This document shows, one piece after another, positions 20,123 through 29,029 of a stretch of DNA of 64,000 nucleotides. The stretch spans positions 236,287 through 300,286 of the forward strand of contig PMTV01000014.1 in assembly GCA_003167215.1 (NCBI GenBank). Direction: 5' to 3'. The notes beneath the pieces are model-generated. The model was not told where the DNA came from. It ran no database searches and was given only the letters and a program-made list of their open reading frames with translations. The position numbers and the translations under genes were made by a program. Source of the stretch: Acidobacteriota bacterium (lineage in GTDB: Bacteria > Acidobacteriota > Terriglobia > Acidiferrales > UBA7541). Position 1 is the stretch's first letter. Each line of letters begins with the position of its first letter.

Positions 20123-20800
20123 TCACAGTGAGGTTTTTAATGACGCCGGAACTTCCACCAACCTTCCATGCGCGAATGCGATGCGGCGATCGGCCAGGCG
20201 TCCGATGGAGGGCGCGTGCGTGACCATGAGAATAGTATGTCCTTCGCGGTGCAATTCGTGGAAGAGCTGGATCACGGTCTCCTCGTTGGCTTCATCCAGG
20301 TTTCCGGTAGGCTCGTCGGCGAGAATGAGCTTCGGATGATTGATCAGCGCCCGGGCAACAGCAACACGTTGCTGTTCGCCCCCGGAAAGTTTTCCAGGCA
20401 AATGCTCGACGCGATCGCCCAAGCCTACACGCTCGAGCGCTTCCCGCGCCTCTTTCTCATCGGTGCTGCTGTGAAAATATTGCGCCAGCATTACGTTTTC
20501 TAGCGCGGTCAGATAGGGCACCAAGTGAAATTGTTGAAAGATGAAACCAATCTTCTGCGCCCTGAAACGCGTAAGCCCGGATTCATCCAGCCGGCCAACG
20601 TCAATGGCATCCACAATCGCTTGCCCTGAAGTGGGCATATCGAGCCCGCCCAGAATATTTATCAGCGTGGTCTTTCCGGAGCCCGAGGGCCCCATGATGG
20701 CAATCCATTCGCCGGCTTCCACGCGGAACGACACGCCTGCGAGCGCGCAAACGTTTCCGAATTCCTTGCGCAGATTCTCGACTTGCACCAGAGTCGCCAC
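20123..20800 (-). CDS. ABC transporter ATP-binding protein (MacB/LolD type)
   Basis: A 225-residue ATPase. Walker [10 protein letters not shown], the Q-loop near [20 protein letters not shown], the signature [16 protein letters not shown] and Walker [14 protein letters not shown] are seen. This is the subgroup that works with MacB/FtsX-type permeases. A GTG start overlaps the stop of the preceding permease gene in TAGTG, so translation is coupled. It completes a four-gene operon led by the FTR1-type permease. In Campylobacter the P19 iron system has the same kinds of subunits. Confidence 0.92.
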
Positions 20801-21936
20801 TATTCCCCTCGAAAAATTACGGCCGGTTTCACTTTTCCCAGCAGCCGCAAAGGAAGCGCTCCGGCGAGCGCGACCGCAACCATAAGAGCGATAGTCAGCG
20901 GAAAGATTTCCCAGCGCAGCGAAATTGCCGTGCCAAAAACGCGCTGGCCCATCCAGCGCGAAAGTTCAATGCCCAGGATGGCGCCGACGAACCCTCCCGC
21001 CGCGCCAAGGACGCCCACTTCGGCCATAAACAATGTAACGATCCGCGCAATCGAGCCGCCCAGCGCCTTCATCAGTCCCACGTCCTGGCGCCTCTCCATC
21101 GCCAGGGCTGCCATCGTCGCAAGGACGCAAAGTGCCGTCAGTGCAAGAATCAGAACCACCATGGACCCGATCAGCAGCCGGATGCGATTTAGAAGATCAC
21201 CTTCGGCTTCGGTTACCTGGCGGATTGGCCGCACTTCGTAAGACGGCAGCGCAGCCGCCAGTCGCGCCGCAAATTCCGAGATGTTTTTAGCCGTTCCCCT
21301 GACGCTCAATTGCGCCAGACCGATCTGGCCCGGAAGTCCCGCGAGCCTCTGAACTTCAGCCAACCCCATGAAGACCTGATTGTCTTCCGCGCCGCCTGCA
21401 TCCACGATGCCGACCAGCGTAGCCTGTGTAGTTTTGCCCAAGTAAGACAAAAGGAGCGTGCTGCCCAGAGCGAGATGGAGTTGCCGCACGACGTTGCGCC
21501 CAACTATGCAAGGTATCTGATTCTCGTGAGACGGAGTCCACTGGCCCTCGATCCTCCACGCCGGCTCAAGCTCCGGCAGCTCTTCCAACTTTGTTCCGGC
21601 AACGACTACGGGCGTGTCCCCGGCCCGCTCGACAATGTAAAGAAAAGGCGCCGCCGCCACAACGGCTGGGTCCTTCAAGCTCTGAATTGCGGCGAATGCC
21701 TCGCTCTCATTCATAAGCGCAGCGGGAGCCGCCCCGTTGATTTGCGCATCGTGACCGGGCGAAATCACCAGGTTTGCACCCAGCATGCGAAATTCTTGGG
21801 TGAGCTTGCGCTCGATGTCGAATTCGAGATTCAGCAGGGCAGAAATCACCATCGCACCGCTTACCAGAGCCAGAATCGCGACGACCAGCCGCCCGCTGCT
21901 GCCGCGCAAGAGTTTCCAGAGCAAGCGCCAGAACAT
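20800..21936 (-). CDS. MacB/FtsX-type ABC permease, second of two
   Basis: A 378-residue permease with one N-terminal helix (LVVAILALVSGAMVISALLNLEF), a periplasmic MacB_PCD-like domain, and three C-terminal helices (MVVLILALTALCVLATMAALAMERRQDVGLMKALGGS, then LFMAEVGVLGAAGG and FPLTIALMVAVALAGALPL). The end reads PAVIFRGE. It starts within the stop of the larger permease in TAATG. The two permeases share the same topology and probably form a heterodimer with the ATPase. Confidence 0.9.
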   Translation of the reverse strand: MFWRLLWKLLRGSSGRLVVAILALVSGAMVISALLNLEFDIERKLTQEFRMLGANLVISPGHDAQINGAAPAALMNESEAFAAIQSLKDPAVVAAAPFLYIVERAGDTPVVVAGTKLEELPELEPAWRIEGQWTPSHENQIPCIVGRNVVRQLHLALGSTLLLSYLGKTTQATLVGIVDAGGAEDNQVFMGLAEVQRLAGLPGQIGLAQLSVRGTAKNISEFAARLAAALPSYEVRPIRQVTEAEGDLLNRIRLLIGSMVVLILALTALCVLATMAALAMERRQDVGLMKALGGSIARIVTLFMAEVGVLGAAGGFVGAILGIELSRWMGQRVFGTAISLRWEIFPLTIALMVAVALAGALPLRLLGKVKPAVIFRGE

Positions 21937-23258
21937 TACTCGCCCCGCAGAATCGGCGCCGGATTGAAGTGCGACGCACGCCGCAAAGGAATCAGACTGC
22001 CCACGAATGCCACGATTGCCGCAATGCCAAGAATCACCGGAAACAGAATCAGCCGCGGCGAAGCGGGCGTGCCAAACACGCTCGCGCCCAGGCTCCGTGC
22101 CAACGCCGCACCCACTACGAACCCGATGGCGCCCCCCGCAACCGCGAGCAGCAACTGTTCCGCGAGGAAAATCCCGGCAATCAGAGAGTTGGTCGCGCCC
22201 AACGCCTTCATCACGCCGATTTCCGCGCGCCGCTCAAGAACGGTGGTAGCCGATGTTGCCGCAACCGCCAGCGCCGCAGCGCCCAGCGCCGCGAGCGTAA
22301 CAATCCAAAGCAGAGTGCCTACGCGCGAGAGGATGCGCCCTTCCGTGTCCGCCACGCGGCGAATGGTGCGCACGTCCGTGCCGGGCAACACCGTTTTTAT
22401 TTGGAAGCTGATCGATGAAATGTAGGGCGAGCAGAACCAGCGATCGTATTCCGTCGGCGTCATTTTCAGCGGATCGCGTTCGGAAAAAGTGTCCGCCGGC
22501 TTGGTCAGCGCGCTTACAAAAAGCTGGCGAAATTGGCCTGGATGTCCCGATAATTTCTGCGCAATCGCGAGAGGCACGAGCAACGCCTTGTCCTCCGCGT
22601 CATCCGTGGACACGATACCCACTACTTTGAGAGCAATCGCTTGCGTTGTGCCGGGTTGGCCTTGCGCTGAGTCGCCAGGCGACCGGCTGGTTACGTAAAT
22701 GACCTTTCCGGCGGTCACACCCGGCATGGTCGCGGCCAGCGCAGAACCTATGACGCATTCATTTGCGTCATCGTGAAACCAGCGGCCCTGAACTTTCCAC
22801 CAGGGATGCGTGACGCTCAGGCCAGTCTTGAAGCTCGTGCCATCTGGGACGGACACGTTCTGCGCGTACCACGTCCCCACAATCATGGCGAGGATCGGAT
22901 CAGAGTTCTCAGATTGCTGAATCGTCGCGGGCACATCAAGGAACGGCGTGAATCCCAGAATATTGTGGCGCCAGAAAATTGTTTTCAGTTTTCCGAGGTC
23001 GGTTTCGCTGAGGTACGCGCCTTCGTTCACCGGCCGATAATCCACGCCGCCGATTTCGATGGGAAGCGTATCCGCTTGCGGTGTGACCAGCAGATTCGCA
23101 CCCAGGCTGCGAAATTCGCGTGCCAGGCGGTCGCCGACCTCAAGCGCAATAGTCAGCGTCGAGGTCGCCACGGCCATGCCCACGACCAGTGCAGCCGCAA
23201 CCAGGACTTTACGTCGCGGATTACGAACGAAGGATTCTCTTACCAGCCGGCCAAACAT
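21936..23258 (-). CDS. MacB/FtsX-type ABC permease, first of two
   Basis: A 440-residue permease resembling its partner: helix KVLVAAALVVGMAVATSTLTIALEVGDRL, a periplasmic domain of about 280 residues, and three C-terminal helices including RRAEIGVMKALGATNSLIAGIFLAEQLLLAVAGGAIGFVVG, ending PAPILRGE. The two share the motif around the last cytosolic loop (EIGVMKALG and DVGLMKALG). It begins three bases past the FTR1 stop, so the genes are tightly linked. The role is inferred from the FTR1 fusion: movement of iron or an iron-linked compound. Confidence 0.9.
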   Translation of the reverse strand: MFGRLVRESFVRNPRRKVLVAAALVVGMAVATSTLTIALEVGDRLAREFRSLGANLLVTPQADTLPIEIGGVDYRPVNEGAYLSETDLGKLKTIFWRHNILGFTPFLDVPATIQQSENSDPILAMIVGTWYAQNVSVPDGTSFKTGLSVTHPWWKVQGRWFHDDANECVIGSALAATMPGVTAGKVIYVTSRSPGDSAQGQPGTTQAIALKVVGIVSTDDAEDKALLVPLAIAQKLSGHPGQFRQLFVSALTKPADTFSERDPLKMTPTEYDRWFCSPYISSISFQIKTVLPGTDVRTIRRVADTEGRILSRVGTLLWIVTLAALGAAALAVAATSATTVLERRAEIGVMKALGATNSLIAGIFLAEQLLLAVAGGAIGFVVGAALARSLGASVFGTPASPRLILFPVILGIAAIVAFVGSLIPLRRASHFNPAPILRGE

Positions 23259-23261
23259 CGT

Positions 23262-24524
23262 TCAGGGGTGAATCGTAGAGACGGCATTGGCGAGCGCCGA
23301 AACATCCACGATCACTTGTCCCCCTTCTACACGGGATTTCACCGCAATCGGATTGCAACCGCCGGATTCTCCGATGGAAGGAATATAAATCGCCGCGCCG
23401 CAATTTCTGCAGATCACGTTCTGCCCTTCCTGGCGATAGCCGGCCGTGCCGCAGATCTGGCAAGCGTCCAGCGCCGCAGCGAAATCGCCGTTTTGTTTGT
23501 GGATCACCAGGAATCGGATTACGGTCCCGTTCACGTCCGCGGTATAAAAATGCAAACTCGAATCTGTAAGCTCGGAAAGCGGAATGTTTACCTGGCCGTT
23601 TTGCGCCACAAGCACCTGGGCACGCACCGGCGCCGTCACTGCCCGGGCATATACGTACTCGGCGGCGAAAGACAGAACGACGGCCACGCACAAGATAGCC
23701 GCCGCAAAACTCCAGCGCTTCTGACGCCGAAATTCCCACTCGCGCATCCGCCGATCGGCCGAATTCGCAGCTTCCGCAGGCGCGGGGCTCTTCGCGCTGA
23801 ACCACTCGCGCAGCACCGCGAGCGCGGCAACTCCCAGAATCACAACAAAGAAGAATACTTCGTTCCGCACGATGGGCCCTATTGTGGCCATTTCTCGTTT
23901 ACTTGACGGCAGCCACATGGCCTCGCTTAGTTCGTGCAGGCCGGTGAGCAAAAGCTGGAAAGCGACGACCATCAGAATCGTGCTGGTGGCCGTAAAAAAA
24001 CGATGAAGAGGTATTCGCAGGGTGCCTTGAAAAAAGAAAAGACCCACGGCCACCGCGATCGCGATTCCAAGCCCGGTTCCAATCCAGACTTGCACGCCCG
24101 CGCTGGAAAGCTCCACGGCACGAAGGATCAGAACTAGCTCTGCTCCTTCCCGCACCACCATCAGGAATATGAAGAATCCAATTCCCCAGCCGGCGGCGCG
24201 TGTGGACTGCTGCGCGTACGCTTCCACCCGTTGCTCGATGTGCTTCTTTAGGTGCCGCGCCACGCGGTTCATCCAGACGATCATGGTTACCACCAGAACG
24301 CCGGCCGCCAGCATCAGCAGCCCTTCAAAACCATCTTCGCTTACATGCCAGTGTTGCAAGAGCAATGCCGCGGCGATGCTGGCGGCGACAGCCAGGATCA
24401 CGCCCGCCCAGACATAGCTCGTAAGCGCGCGCCGCCCTGTACGATTCAGATAGACGAGGACGATACCGACGACGAGCGCGGCTTCGACGCCTTCACGAAG
24501 TGCGACAAGAAGAGCAGATAGCAT
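23262..24524 (-). CDS. FTR1-family iron permease fused to a DUF2318 Cys-rich domain
   Basis: An inner-membrane iron transporter of 420 residues. The two REXXE iron motifs are REGVE (10-14) and REGAE (125-129), set in seven hydrophobic helices of the FTR1 fold, which runs to about residue 260. After a linker and another helix near 275-290, the C-terminal 130 residues hold the DUF2318 Fe-S-like domain, with Cys355, Cys358, Cys372, Cys375 and Cys390 (CQIC, CRNC, GGCNPI). In Campylobacter the Ftr1, Cj1660 (DUF2318), two permeases and an ATPase are separate genes of the P19 iron system; here the first two are one gene. No P19 gene is seen. Confidence 0.92.
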   Translation of the reverse strand: MLSALLVALREGVEAALVVGIVLVYLNRTGRRALTSYVWAGVILAVAASIAAALLLQHWHVSEDGFEGLLMLAAGVLVVTMIVWMNRVARHLKKHIEQRVEAYAQQSTRAAGWGIGFFIFLMVVREGAELVLILRAVELSSAGVQVWIGTGLGIAIAVAVGLFFFQGTLRIPLHRFFTATSTILMVVAFQLLLTGLHELSEAMWLPSSKREMATIGPIVRNEVFFFVVILGVAALAVLREWFSAKSPAPAEAANSADRRMREWEFRRQKRWSFAAAILCVAVVLSFAAEYVYARAVTAPVRAQVLVAQNGQVNIPLSELTDSSLHFYTADVNGTVIRFLVIHKQNGDFAAALDACQICGTAGYRQEGQNVICRNCGAAIYIPSIGESGGCNPIAVKSRVEGGQVIVDVSALANAVSTIHP

Positions 24525-24705: not shown

Positions 24706-27700
24706 ATGCCACCTGCACTTCGTTCAAGATCACCTAAACTCTTCGCCGCCGTCGCGGCACTGTTGGCGATTTCTTTCTTGGGTACCTTTCATGCCACTTC
24801 CGCCCGTGCAAGGTTGCCTGCCATTGTTCAGTCTCAATCGGACAGCGCCAAGCCGGCGCAAACGCCGCAATCGCAACCTGCCACTACCCCTGATACAACC
24901 AGCAAGACAACTCCCGCGCCGGGGGCGAACTCTTCAAGTACTCCCAGTTCCCCGCTGGTAAAAGCCGACCTTAAAAAAGCCAAGCTGGCTAACAAGCAGG
25001 GCCTTCGCGCAGAAGAGCAAGGTGACTGGGAAGCGGCCTACGAAGCCTACTCCGACGCGGTTAACTTCGCGCCCAACGATAGCGATTATTTTTCTCGCCG
25101 GGAAATTGCCAAGAGCCATGTGGTCCAGATGAAAGTCGATCTGGCGGAGCGGCACGCTATTTCCGGGGAAATCCCCGCTGCGCTACATACACTGCGCGAA
25201 GCTCGGGAACTCGATCCCAGCAACAAAGTGATCCGCGACCGATTGACGGAACTCTCCGCTCTGGATCCCCGCCAAGCAAGGCAAATTCTTTCCGGCCCCG
25301 AGCCTCCCCGTGAAGTGCACCTCGAACACTTGCCGGGAAAGCAAAATTTCCGATTGCGTGGCGATACGCAAAGCGCTTATGAAGAGATCGCGCAGAAGTT
25401 CGGCGTGGACGTTGCATTCGATGTGGATTTACGCTCGCGGCAGGTACACGTTGACGCCAATGACCTGGACTTCGCCACTGCCACTCGGATCCTGGGTGAA
25501 CAAACTCACACTTTCTGGCGGCCGCTTACCAAACACTTGTTTTTTGTAGCCGACGATACAACGCAGAAGCGGAAAGATTACGATCTCTCGATCGTGCGCA
25601 CGGTCTTGTTTTCGTCTACCGAGACTCCGGAACAGATGACGGAGATCTCGCATCTGGTGCGGGAAGTTGCAGGAATCACGCGAAGCCAGTTGGACACCCG
25701 CAGCCGCACGCTTACGATGCGTGCCTCTCCCCAAGCGATCGCCGTAGCCAGCGGAGTAATTGACGACCTCGACCGGCCGGTCGGCGAACTGGTGTTGGAA
25801 ATCGAAATCCTCGAAATGGACCGCAATTATGCGGAGCAACTTGGCATCCTGCCGCCGCAGAGTGGCCATGTTTACACCATTCCCTCGAACGCCGTAACCG
25901 AGGCGGAATCGGGACTTCCCGGACTGCTCACCGTCCTTACGCAAATATTCGGAAGCGCCGCGACCGCAGGTCTTTCGCCGACGCAGCTCGCCACCTTGCT
26001 AGCCTCGGGTCAAGTGGATGTCGGCGGGCTGATTCCGCCAATCGTCGCTTTCGGAGGCGGAGCGTCAACCTTTCTGGCCACCATTCCCGGCGCGGCCGCA
26101 AGTTTTTCGGAGATGCTTTCGCTGGTGCGCCATGGCCGCCGGATTTTGCTTCGCGCCGAGGATAACCAGCCTGCGACATTCTTTGTGGGCGAGCGTTTTC
26201 CCGTTTCGCTTGCGCAATATTCCAACAGCCTTGGAACGGGGGCGACCACGGGCGGAACGAGCATCCTGGGCCTGAGCACTTCTGATTTTCCGGTAACGAA
26301 CTATGCCACGGGAAATGCCCCGGATTTCGTGACAACAGCCGATTTGAACGGCGATAATTTTCAAGATCTCATCGTTTCGAACTTCACCGATGACACCCTT
26401 TCTATTTTTCTCGGCAACGGCGATGGAACCTTTCAGAATCCGGCTACCCTTAAACCCACAACCGGCAAGGGACCTATTTCCATCGCAACGGGCACCTTCA
26501 ACGCAAAGAACAATACGAACGTGGGACTGGCTGTGGCCAACGAAACTGACAATACCGTTACAATTCTACTGGGTAATGGCGACGGCACCTTTACGGCCGC
26601 TTCCGGTTCACCTATCAAGACCGGAAACCATCCGGTCTCCGTTGTCTCGGCCACGCTGATTGCGGGCGGACAATTCGATCTGCTCGTCGCGAATCAGCAG
26701 GACGACACTGTCTCTGTCTTCATGGGCAACGGAGACGGAACTTTCGCGGCCCCTGTAAATCTAACCACCGGCAAGGCGCCCACCGGCCTTGTGGTCGCGG
26801 ATTTCAATAACGACGGCAAGTTAGATCTGGCCGTTACCAATCAAACGGACAACTCCGTCTCCGTCTATCTGGGAAATGGGGATGGGACTTTCAATAAACC
26901 CTTGAGCTATCCGACCGGGCAAACGCCGATCTATGTGGCGGCGGCCGACTTCAATGGCGACAACATCCTGGACCTTGCAGTCGCAAATAATGGCGTGGGA
27001 ACCGACACGCTTTCAGGTGCCTCCGTTTCAATTCTTCTGGGTGTCGGTGACGGCACGTTTGGCGCAACAAACAACTTTCCCGCAGGCAATGGCCCCACTT
27101 CGATCGCCATCGCGGATTACAACATCGACGGCATCCCCGACCTGGCCGTCACGGCACAGACTGACAATGCCGTATCCCTGCTGATTGGACTCGGCGACGG
27201 AACCTTTACTCCATTTTTTGAATTCCCCGTCGAGACGAATCCGGTTTCACTCGCCACTGCCGTATTTACGGACACTGCTCAGCCTGACCTGGCAGTCGCG
27301 AACTACGGCTCCAATACCGTATCGGTCATACTTAATTCTTCGCAATTTCTGAGCGGCAGCTCGTCGGCCACCGGTACTCAGTTCCCCAATGCCGAGTACA
27401 TCGACGTGGGAGTCAAGGTGAAGGCGACGCCGCGCATTCACCAAAACGATGAGGTCACGCTGCAGCTTGAATTCAATATTACTAGCCTCACGGGATCAAT
27501 TCTTAACAACATCCCAGTTGTGGCGAACGAAGAGATCCATCAAACAGTGCGCGTAAAGACGGATCAAACGGCGGCCTTGGCAGGATTCCGCTCGCCCCAG
27601 TACACGCGTGGCCTGAACGGCACGCCTGCGTTTGGAGGCGCAACTGGCCCGGGGTTGTTAGGAGCGGCGGAAGACGTGCAACAACAAGATACCGAGGTGC

Positions 27701-27999
27701 TGATACTTGTAACCCCGCGTATGGTCGCCCTCGCGCCGCGCAAGGATCATCTGATTTACGCGGGTCGCGGCGCTCCCGAAGGTCCAGGCTCGGCGGGACC
27801 CACGCACCAAGAGCGCCAAGAGCGGGCACCAGGCCTACCCCAAACGCAACCACAAGCTCCGCCCCAAACTCCGCCAGCGCCTGCTCCTGCTCCCGAGCCT
27901 GGGTCTCAACCGCAACAACCGACTCCTTCCGAGCAGGGAGCGCAGCCGCAGCCACCTCCGCCTCAACCGGCCCCGCAGCAACAACCCGAACCACAGTAG
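24706..27999 (+). CDS. Secretin with an inserted FG-GAP beta-propeller
   Basis: A 1097-residue outer-membrane channel-type protein. After a signal-like helix (LFAAVAALLAISFLGTF), it has a Pro/Ser/Thr linker to about 85, a TPR-like region (about 90-180: KQGLRAEEQGDWEAAYEAYSDAV), and an STN/secretin N-terminal-like domain at about 216-285 (TQSAYEEIAQKFGVDVAFDVDLRSRQVHV). The secretin core starts near 365 (LEIEILEMDRNYAEQLG) and resumes at 898 (YIDVGVKVKATPRI) to VTPRMV at about 1002. Between them, residues about 541-880 hold seven FG-GAP repeats. A Pro/Gln-rich tail ends the protein. Secretins carry pilus or type II export substrates; no such cluster is here. The insertion inside the core is unusual. 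Confidence 0.88.
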   Translation: MPPALRSRSPKLFAAVAALLAISFLGTFHATSARARLPAIVQSQSDSAKPAQTPQSQPATTPDTTSKTTPAPGANSSSTPSSPLVKADLKKAKLANKQGLRAEEQGDWEAAYEAYSDAVNFAPNDSDYFSRREIAKSHVVQMKVDLAERHAISGEIPAALHTLREARELDPSNKVIRDRLTELSALDPRQARQILSGPEPPREVHLEHLPGKQNFRLRGDTQSAYEEIAQKFGVDVAFDVDLRSRQVHVDANDLDFATATRILGEQTHTFWRPLTKHLFFVADDTTQKRKDYDLSIVRTVLFSSTETPEQMTEISHLVREVAGITRSQLDTRSRTLTMRASPQAIAVASGVIDDLDRPVGELVLEIEILEMDRNYAEQLGILPPQSGHVYTIPSNAVTEAESGLPGLLTVLTQIFGSAATAGLSPTQLATLLASGQVDVGGLIPPIVAFGGGASTFLATIPGAAASFSEMLSLVRHGRRILLRAEDNQPATFFVGERFPVSLAQYSNSLGTGATTGGTSILGLSTSDFPVTNYATGNAPDFVTTADLNGDNFQDLIVSNFTDDTLSIFLGNGDGTFQNPATLKPTTGKGPISIATGTFNAKNNTNVGLAVANETDNTVTILLGNGDGTFTAASGSPIKTGNHPVSVVSATLIAGGQFDLLVANQQDDTVSVFMGNGDGTFAAPVNLTTGKAPTGLVVADFNNDGKLDLAVTNQTDNSVSVYLGNGDGTFNKPLSYPTGQTPIYVAAADFNGDNILDLAVANNGVGTDTLSGASVSILLGVGDGTFGATNNFPAGNGPTSIAIADYNIDGIPDLAVTAQTDNAVSLLIGLGDGTFTPFFEFPVETNPVSLATAVFTDTAQPDLAVANYGSNTVSVILNSSQFLSGSSSATGTQFPNAEYIDVGVKVKATPRIHQNDEVTLQLEFNITSLTGSILNNIPVVANEEIHQTVRVKTDQTAALAGFRSPQYTRGLNGTPAFGGATGPGLLGAAEDVQQQDTEVLILVTPRMVALAPRKDHLIYAGRGAPEGPGSAGPTHQERQERAPGLPQTQPQAPPQTPPAPAPAPEPGSQPQQPTPSEQGAQPQPPPPQPAPQQQPEPQ
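26326..27345 (+). repeat. Seven FG-GAP/VCBS protein repeats within the secretin
   Basis: Seven units of about 48 residues each, with the core LGNGDGTF or its variants after a calcium-type loop DxNxDxxxD. The loop is good in units 1, 4, 5 and 6 (DLNGDNFQD, DFNNDGKLD, DFNGDNILD, DYNIDGIPD) and degenerate in 2, 3 and 7. The last unit lacks the GDGTF part. Seven units fit one complete seven-blade beta-propeller. Confidence 0.88.
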
Positions 28000-28054: not shown

Positions 28055-29029
28055 TCAGGGAATCGCTTCGAGGACTACGACCGGCTGGTAGGTACGTGGC
28101 ACGACGGGCTCAGCAATAGCGATCAATTGTCCCTGCTGGTTAAACACGCGCAATCGAGACGGCTTCCAGTCATCCGAATCCAGCTGCGCGGGAGCCCCGG
28201 GGAGCGATGTCACCTGGCCAGGTTGAATCTGAGCTATCGACACATTGAACTTTGCGCCGTGGCGCACGCGCTTTTCGACGATGGGCAAAATAGTCGCCCG
28301 AGGCAGCTCAGGCAATAAACTTTCCAGGCGAATGATGCGTTTTTCCAAACGTCCCGTCTTGGCCTCCTGGTCGAGTTCCAGGAGTTGGCCGGCCTGGTCC
28401 AGCGTAAACTCGCCGACCGCCGTGCGTTGGATCTCCGCCAGGTGCGCACCGGAACCCTGCAGCGCACCGAGTTCGTGTGCCAGCGAACGAATGTAGGTCC
28501 CAGCGCCGCATTCCACCACGAACCGCGCGATCGAACCTTCCACGCCGGTAAGCCTGAATTCGTACACATCCACCTCGACGGGTTCCAGCTTCACCGGCTT
28601 GTTTTTTCGCGCCAGTTCATGCGCTGGCCTCCCATGAATCTTTTTCGCGGAGAAAGACGGCGGAGTTTGCTTGATCTTGCCCAGGAATCGCGCTGCGTAT
28701 TCTTCCAGTTCTTTCGGGTTCAGCGCAGGAGCGGCATCAGGACCCAAGGCCTCGCCGTCCGCGTCATAGGTATCAGTGGAAAATCCGAATCGCACCGCGA
28801 AGCTGTATCGCTTCCGGCGTCCGCTGTAAAACCGCGCCAGCCGTGTGGCGCGGCCGAGCGCAAGAACCAGGACTCCGGTTGCCAGCGGATCAAGAGTTCC
28901 GAAATGTCCAATGCCGCGGAAACCTACCAGGCGGCGCACAGCTTCCACCACGTCGTGCGAAGTTTTCCCGCGCGGCTTGTCGACGATAAGAATTCCGTCG
29001 TAGGGCAAAGGCTGAGGAGATCGGGGCAT
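28055..29029 (-). CDS. truB: tRNA pseudouridine-55 synthase
   Basis: Isomerises uridine 55 in the T-psi-C loop of tRNAs. The start DGILIVDKPRGKTSHDVV and GTLDPLATGVL are diagnostic; Asp47 in the latter is the catalytic residue. The middle has YDADGE and the RVYTYxx-like region is here CGAGTYIRSLAHELG. The length of 324 residues includes a C-terminal domain of PUA-like type. It ends the rimP-nusA-infB-rbfA-truB group, as in many bacteria. Confidence 0.94.
   Translation of the reverse strand: MPRSPQPLPYDGILIVDKPRGKTSHDVVEAVRRLVGFRGIGHFGTLDPLATGVLVLALGRATRLARFYSGRRKRYSFAVRFGFSTDTYDADGEALGPDAAPALNPKELEEYAARFLGKIKQTPPSFSAKKIHGRPAHELARKNKPVKLEPVEVDVYEFRLTGVEGSIARFVVECGAGTYIRSLAHELGALQGSGAHLAEIQRTAVGEFTLDQAGQLLELDQEAKTGRLEKRIIRLESLLPELPRATILPIVEKRVRHGAKFNVSIAQIQPGQVTSLPGAPAQLDSDDWKPSRLRVFNQQGQLIAIAEPVVPRTYQPVVVLEAIP

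Follow-up and report, generated by a model that had tools for sequence, protein, structure and literature searches.

A stand-alone secretin of Acidobacteriota that carries an FG-GAP propeller in its central gate

A stretch of 64,000 nucleotides from the genome of an Acidobacteriota bacterium (GenBank assembly GCA_003167215.1, contig PMTV01000014.1; hereafter the window) encodes a secretin with a complete FG-GAP beta-propeller in the central-gate loop of the channel. The gene (24706-27999 on the forward strand) is a single open frame that starts with an ATG at 24706 and encodes 1097 amino acids, in the order signal peptide, TPR, N-domains, first half of the secretin, FG-GAP propeller, second half of the secretin and Pro/Gln tail (table 1). 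A first-pass annotation of the window had described one secretin whose halves are separated by a complete FG-GAP propeller, and the coordinates, the order and the unbroken frame are confirmed by Pfam matches and by orthologues that lack the insert. At the level of sequence, the architecture, position, conservation and recurrence of the gate insert are firmly established.

Table 1. Features of the secretin gene and its neighbors in the window, and gate-loop inserts in the related family f7
Feature	Position	Strand	Remarks
ftr1 (FTR1 permease fused to FtrD-like)	23262..24524	-	Divergent neighbor, conserved beside the secretin in the order
Whole secretin gene	24706..27999	+	1097 aa; TPR, N-domains, split secretin, propeller, Pro/Gln tail
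Putative Sec-type signal peptide	24706..24810	+	Residues ~1-35; hydrophobic segment 12-25, sequence inspection
TPR region	24967..25260	+	Residues 88-185; weak TPR_2/TPR_14 matches, confident helical hairpins in the model
Periplasmic N-domains	25321..25773	+	Residues 206-356; Secretin_N recognized in orthologues
Secretin C-module, first half	25777..26220	+	Residues 358-505; ends in the first central-gate strand FFVGERFPVSLAQY
First central-gate glycine pivot, Gly495	26188..26190	+	Equivalent of XcpD G466; invariant in the alignment
Variable linker into the propeller	26221..26292	+	Residues 506-529; least conserved stretch
Seven-blade FG-GAP beta-propeller	26293..27339	+	Residues ~530-878; Pfam, AlphaFold2, fold matches
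Calcium loop 1, DLNGDNFQD	26341..26367	+	Residue 546, motif match
Calcium loop 2, DFNNDGKLD	26800..26826	+	Residue 699, motif match
Calcium loop 3, DFNGDNILD	26947..26973	+	Residue 748, motif match
Calcium loop 4, DYNIDGIPD	27115..27141	+	Residue 804, motif match
Linker out of the propeller	27340..27384	+	Residues 879-893; low pLDDT
Secretin C-module, second half	27385..27735	+	Residues 894-1010; gate return strand YIDVGVKVKATPRIH and remaining barrel
Second central-gate glycine pivot, Gly902	27409..27411	+	Equivalent of XcpD G496; invariant in the alignment
truB	28055..29029	-	Convergent neighbor, conserved beside the secretin in the order
FG-GAP propeller in the f7 central-gate loop	L132:1296-4619
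Four Ig_3/I-set domains in the f7 central-gate loop	L135:871-3873
Repeats of ~205 residues in the f7 gate loop	L107:3686-7756, L131:923-3946, L133:1878-5132, L134:1492-4470		Without a Pfam name
Another repeat in the f7 gate loop	L140:2221-4536

The window protein is matched by the Pfam families FG-GAP_3 (141 bits, four stretches over the cut-off) and FG-GAP (56 bits), and the Secretin family (PF00263) matches residues 883-1007 with 73.6 bits against a curated cut-off of 27.5. The Secretin match covers profile positions 34-168, that is, it starts where the insert ends. Ahead of the C-module, residues 206-356 show a profile match to the N-domains of the PilQ protein of the same genome. The first secretin half gave no phmmer match when searched directly against solved secretins, the hhalign match between the junction profile and PilQ was very weak, and the identity of the first half as part of a secretin rests on the orthologues without FG-GAP units. 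In these, the two halves form one continuous Secretin match (profile positions 16-167, 92.7 bits) and the gate spans 40-41 residues from pivot to pivot, compared with 384-438 in typical FG-GAP members. The concern raised in the first-pass annotation that the flanking parts might not belong to one secretin is answered by these orthologues, and the secretin is, by this comparison, clearly intact on both sides of the insert. The window protein misses the NCBIfam cut-offs for GspD (68.5 vs 351), PilQ (49.7 vs 284) and SctC (35 vs 238), and by the cut-offs of these models it appears to be a member of the secretin superfamily outside the orthology of all three.

Orthologues were found in 91 out of 95 genomes of the order, including 52 out of 52 genomes of good quality. 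Orthologues in two other families of the order, and in genus g10 within the window's own family, lack the propeller. The basic function of the protein does not depend on the insert, since the gene has been kept without it in g10 and in the families f2, f3 and f11. A copy of the gene with ~98-99% identity in another metagenome-assembled genome (L037:2914-6000) is split into two frames with the intervening stretch missing, which reflects an assembly error or real damage. Five further lone TPR-secretins of the phylum (L078, L079, L080, L081, and L082) carry a long C-terminal extension past the barrel that is cohesin-like by eye; none of these five long secretin ORFs contains FG-GAP units, and their extra length consists of N-terminal read-through and the C-terminal extension.

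The central gate of a secretin seals a very wide hole yet must swing open, and point mutations within it result in leaky cells. An orthologue without the insert aligns to XcpD (5WLN) without a break across the insertion site, and a single offset of 34 reconciles all six published XcpD positions with the aligned sequence. In XcpD the central gate comprises residues 466-496; it is bounded by glycine pivots on both sides and has T477/S480 at its tip (PMC10550240). The pivot glycines G466 and G496 align with glycines of the orthologue that correspond to Gly495 and Gly902 of the window protein, neither of which varies in any aligned orthologue that spans the site. The pivot-on-pivot alignment therefore places the propeller on the hairpin tip of the central gate (Gate 1) and rules out an insertion into the apical or top-gate loop, which is a different loop. 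The earlier description of a propeller in a loop holds, but the assumption of a surface loop does not: the site is a hairpin inside the channel, between the glycine pivots, and surface exposure would therefore require hairpins that point outward. It has also to be considered that the protein has no working pore and that a remnant of the barrel merely anchors the propeller as a surface protein, in keeping with the modest Secretin score (73.6 bits) and with a region ahead of the last strand that reads as degenerate on inspection of the window protein. This explanation is highly improbable given the invariance of both pivots, the dN/dS values well below 1 for both secretin halves (in the pair that permits an estimate) and the higher scores of the propeller-free orthologues as ordinary secretins.

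The fold of the insert was predicted with AlphaFold2 in two runs based on the window protein and five relatives (6 rows). The mean pLDDT of the whole model was 56-65 with lower values in the barrel, and the propeller alone was confidently placed (residues ~530-878, block means mostly 78-94). Prediction of the full protein, suggested as a check in the earlier reading, hence gave a confident propeller together with a poorly modeled barrel. A VIA fold search, whose rows covered the propeller only and have no bearing on the barrel, matched it to integrin-alpha heads and other seven-blade propellers (Z 33-34, rmsd 2.5-3.0 Å, ~330 aligned residues), and Foldseek matched it to the propeller of LGI1 (TM 0.83). 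Overall, the insert is predicted to be a closed seven-blade FG-GAP propeller. The segment ahead of blade 1 (DFPVTNYATG) reads on inspection as the outer, closing strand of blade 7. It would complete the ring and bring the two ends of the domain together, as insertion into a hairpin requires. Canonical calcium loops of the D-x-N-x-D type are present in four out of seven blades (at residues 546, 699, 748, and 804), the same number of well-kept loops as reported at first. The number of calcium loops varies from 1 to 7 among the members, which argues against one conserved calcium-dependent ligand. A search for a potential donor within the window's genome identified no other protein that matches the propeller at E <= 1e-20.

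A search for the FG-GAP/secretin junction matched it over its whole length in 78 genomes of the window's family. Together with the conserved synteny this rules out a mis-assembly, a chance association or a one-off fusion. The gene order ftr1-secretin-truB is at least partly common to genomes with and without the propeller (both neighbors in L054, truB in L050 and L055, ftr1 in L060), which identifies the genes as orthologues and places the gain of the propeller within a single locus. The propeller is under purifying selection, with dN/dS values of 0.13 and 0.09 against two relatives that are near those of the secretin parts. The entry linker (residues 506-529) changes faster than any other part of the protein: identity with the two nearest relatives is 48% and 63% in the linker compared with 65-89% elsewhere, and the dN/dS of the linker is 0.53 for one pair and 0.19 for another.

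The tree of the propeller follows the tree of the secretin (17 of 26 splits common; <=3 in 1000 label shuffles), which rules out that propellers were shuffled among many secretins by transfer and provides firm phylogenetic evidence for vertical inheritance. A single early gain in the family, combined with loss or primary absence in g10, looks like the history that fits the tree, and the propeller would accordingly seem to be an early acquisition that nearly the whole bacterial family retained. The propellers of g5 were invaded by He_PIG or three Big_2 domains, which stretches the gate to 566-696 residues. Ig-like domains nested in a propeller that is itself nested in a secretin gate were observed at L064:803-4648, L067:666-4694, L070:1619-5164, and L072:2-3523.

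Upstream of the secretin, a divergent cluster (20123-24524) encodes the FTR1-FtrD-like fusion, two FtsX-type permeases and an ABC ATPase, which we take to resemble iron uptake clusters of the P19/FTR1 type. The FTR1/ABC cluster borders the secretin in most of the loci read in the order, with or without the propeller. A functional link between the secretin and ftr1 seems doubtful: the adjacency holds in the order including the members without FG-GAP units, but the f11 homologues lie elsewhere. None of the T2SSE or T2SSF matches of the genome lies on the 431-kb contig (C19) that carries the secretin, which bears out the initial observation that the gene stands alone without a pilus or T2SS gene nearby. 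The 3.78-Mb draft genome contains four secretins: the window's gene, one on C8 that is followed by Tad-like ATPase and platform genes, one on C51 within a PilMNO-like cluster (the names in both clusters are a reading of the ORFs), and a TPR secretin of 805 amino acids on C44. A second pilus/T2SS-like locus (G000:C21 ~69-76 kb, L128:12316-18999) contains a platform protein, an ATPase, PilM/N/O-like and possible pseudopilin ORFs. No secretin match was found on C21, and the locus may use an unlinked secretin, either the one on C44 or that of the window.

An ATPase and platform locus on a contig without a secretin match would suit a periplasmic cargo receptor, in which propellers on the periplasmic side of the gate catch substrates or the tip of a pseudopilus prior to transport. 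Furthermore, secretins come to the outer membrane from the periplasmic side, the side that bulky gate tips would reach most easily. Such a receptor seems improbable, however, since the vestibule would be crowded by 12-15 propellers and, in some members, the insert grows to ~600-700 residues through nested Ig domains; conservation points to neither side of the gate.

Large inserts between the same two pivots were also identified in f7, another family of the class, in 7 out of 85 genomes with a match (table 1). The hosts are homologous lone secretins, and the other f7 members examined contain 31-41 residues between the pivots. Mapped onto a tree built from the secretin parts, insert presence requires five changes (5-5 across the bootstrap trees); L135 is absent from this tree as the search pattern did not capture its second pivot. 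The FG-GAP propeller of L132 is independent of the propeller in the window's family. Different inserts at the same loop in f7 thus show that the gate tip of these secretins has repeatedly taken up adhesin-type domains.

The acceptance of unrelated domains (propeller, Ig types, and other repeats) at one site could also mean that the inserts act as a bulk plug that only adds mass to seal a wide channel, without specific binding, so that any globular domain suffices. A precedent is the optional top gate, which provides watertightness without substrate specificity in XcpD chimeras (PMC10550240). Such a role is nevertheless unlikely, as the retained domains belong to types that are frequent in adhesins, the propeller is constrained as much as the channel itself, and relatives with a plain gate are widespread and evidently viable. 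A broader interpretation, put forward tentatively and with some doubt, is that the gate tip serves in evolution as a docking site where the Acidobacteriota repeatedly mount adhesin-type domains (propellers and Ig stacks), so that the gate of an outer-membrane pore would become a ring of 12-15 surface receptors and the binding of a ligand from the outside would directly move it; this would be a new use of secretins.

For the window protein, the best explanation, in which we place middling confidence, is a stand-alone secretin of the outer membrane that carries a closed, integrin-alpha-like propeller in place of its gate tip, and in which a crown of propellers plugs the pore and binds a ligand, a substrate or a surface. 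This explanation presumes ring formation, insertion into the outer membrane and surface exposure, and the propeller may bind a ligand and calcium. The usual secretin ring of ~12-15 subunits would form, with each gate hairpin carrying one propeller of 35 kDa on flexible linkers. The hairpins would probably be raised, as they are in open secretins, with the propellers arranged as a crown level with the outer rim or above it. In an open T3SS secretin the gates swing up to the barrel wall (PMC8563730, PMC10550240). The volume of 12-15 propellers was roughly estimated at 5.1-6.4e5 cubic angstrom compared with ~3.2e5 for the lumen above the gate, which was taken as 90 x 50 Å based on an inner-barrel diameter of 90 Å (PMC8563730) and an assumed height of 50 Å. 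The propellers are too bulky for the lumen above the gate, so the crown is probably external. It would block the open pore and/or bind a ligand, substrate or surface, and hairpins swinging about their glycines would couple binding or the passage of a substrate to opening. The combination of a channel with surface binding or gating that the first-pass annotation had suggested is right as a likely theme, with its surface part depending on hairpins that would point outward.

No secretin with an FG-GAP, VCBS, beta-propeller, Ig-like or other gate-inserted domain was found in the open-access literature, in agreement with the first reading, which knew of no description. A domain of 35 kDa (elsewhere of the Ig type) that is fixed at the gate tip in many genomes indicates that the gate can carry large domains. 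These proteins are natural chimeras for testing the gating of secretins, the side that the gate tips face and a receptor role of secretins, and in a soil lineage of the Acidobacteriota from which little has been cultivated they define a core gene of unknown function. The propeller, together with the other adhesin-type domains at the same spot in relatives, suggests a channel that uses its gate to display bulky domains or is plugged by them.

The window protein shares the C-module, the two glycine pivots and the preceding N-domains with GspD/XcpD of the T2SS, PilQ of the type IV pilus and RcpA of the Tad system, and its orthologues without FG-GAP units can be aligned across the gate to XcpD and RcpA. 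It differs from GspD, PilQ and RcpA, whose gate loop comprises ~30-53 residues, by a gate of 384-696 residues in the FG-GAP members, by the N-terminal TPR and by being encoded alone, with ftr1 and truB as neighbors and no ATPase, platform or pilin genes of its own alongside. Like the top gate or cap gate of Vibrio-type GspD, for which a role in watertightness is described, the propeller is an optional extra element that would narrow the pore (PMC10550240, PMC8563730). The Vibrio-type top gate, however, is an extra apical loop (T2SS apical regions comprise 34-101 residues), whereas the insert of the window protein is a folded domain of 350 residues in the central gate. The seven-blade fold, the FG-GAP units and the calcium loops in four blades are shared with the integrin alpha propeller and with bacterial FG-GAP/VCBS proteins, in which the propeller sits at the end of a chain or on a stalk, whereas that of the window is inserted through adjacent ends into the gate loop of a channel. 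The closest parallel in the channel itself is provided by the lone TPR-secretins of f7 and f11, which are homologous and include the f7 genomes with large gate-loop domains; the types of insert differ, and most f7 and f11 members carry none.
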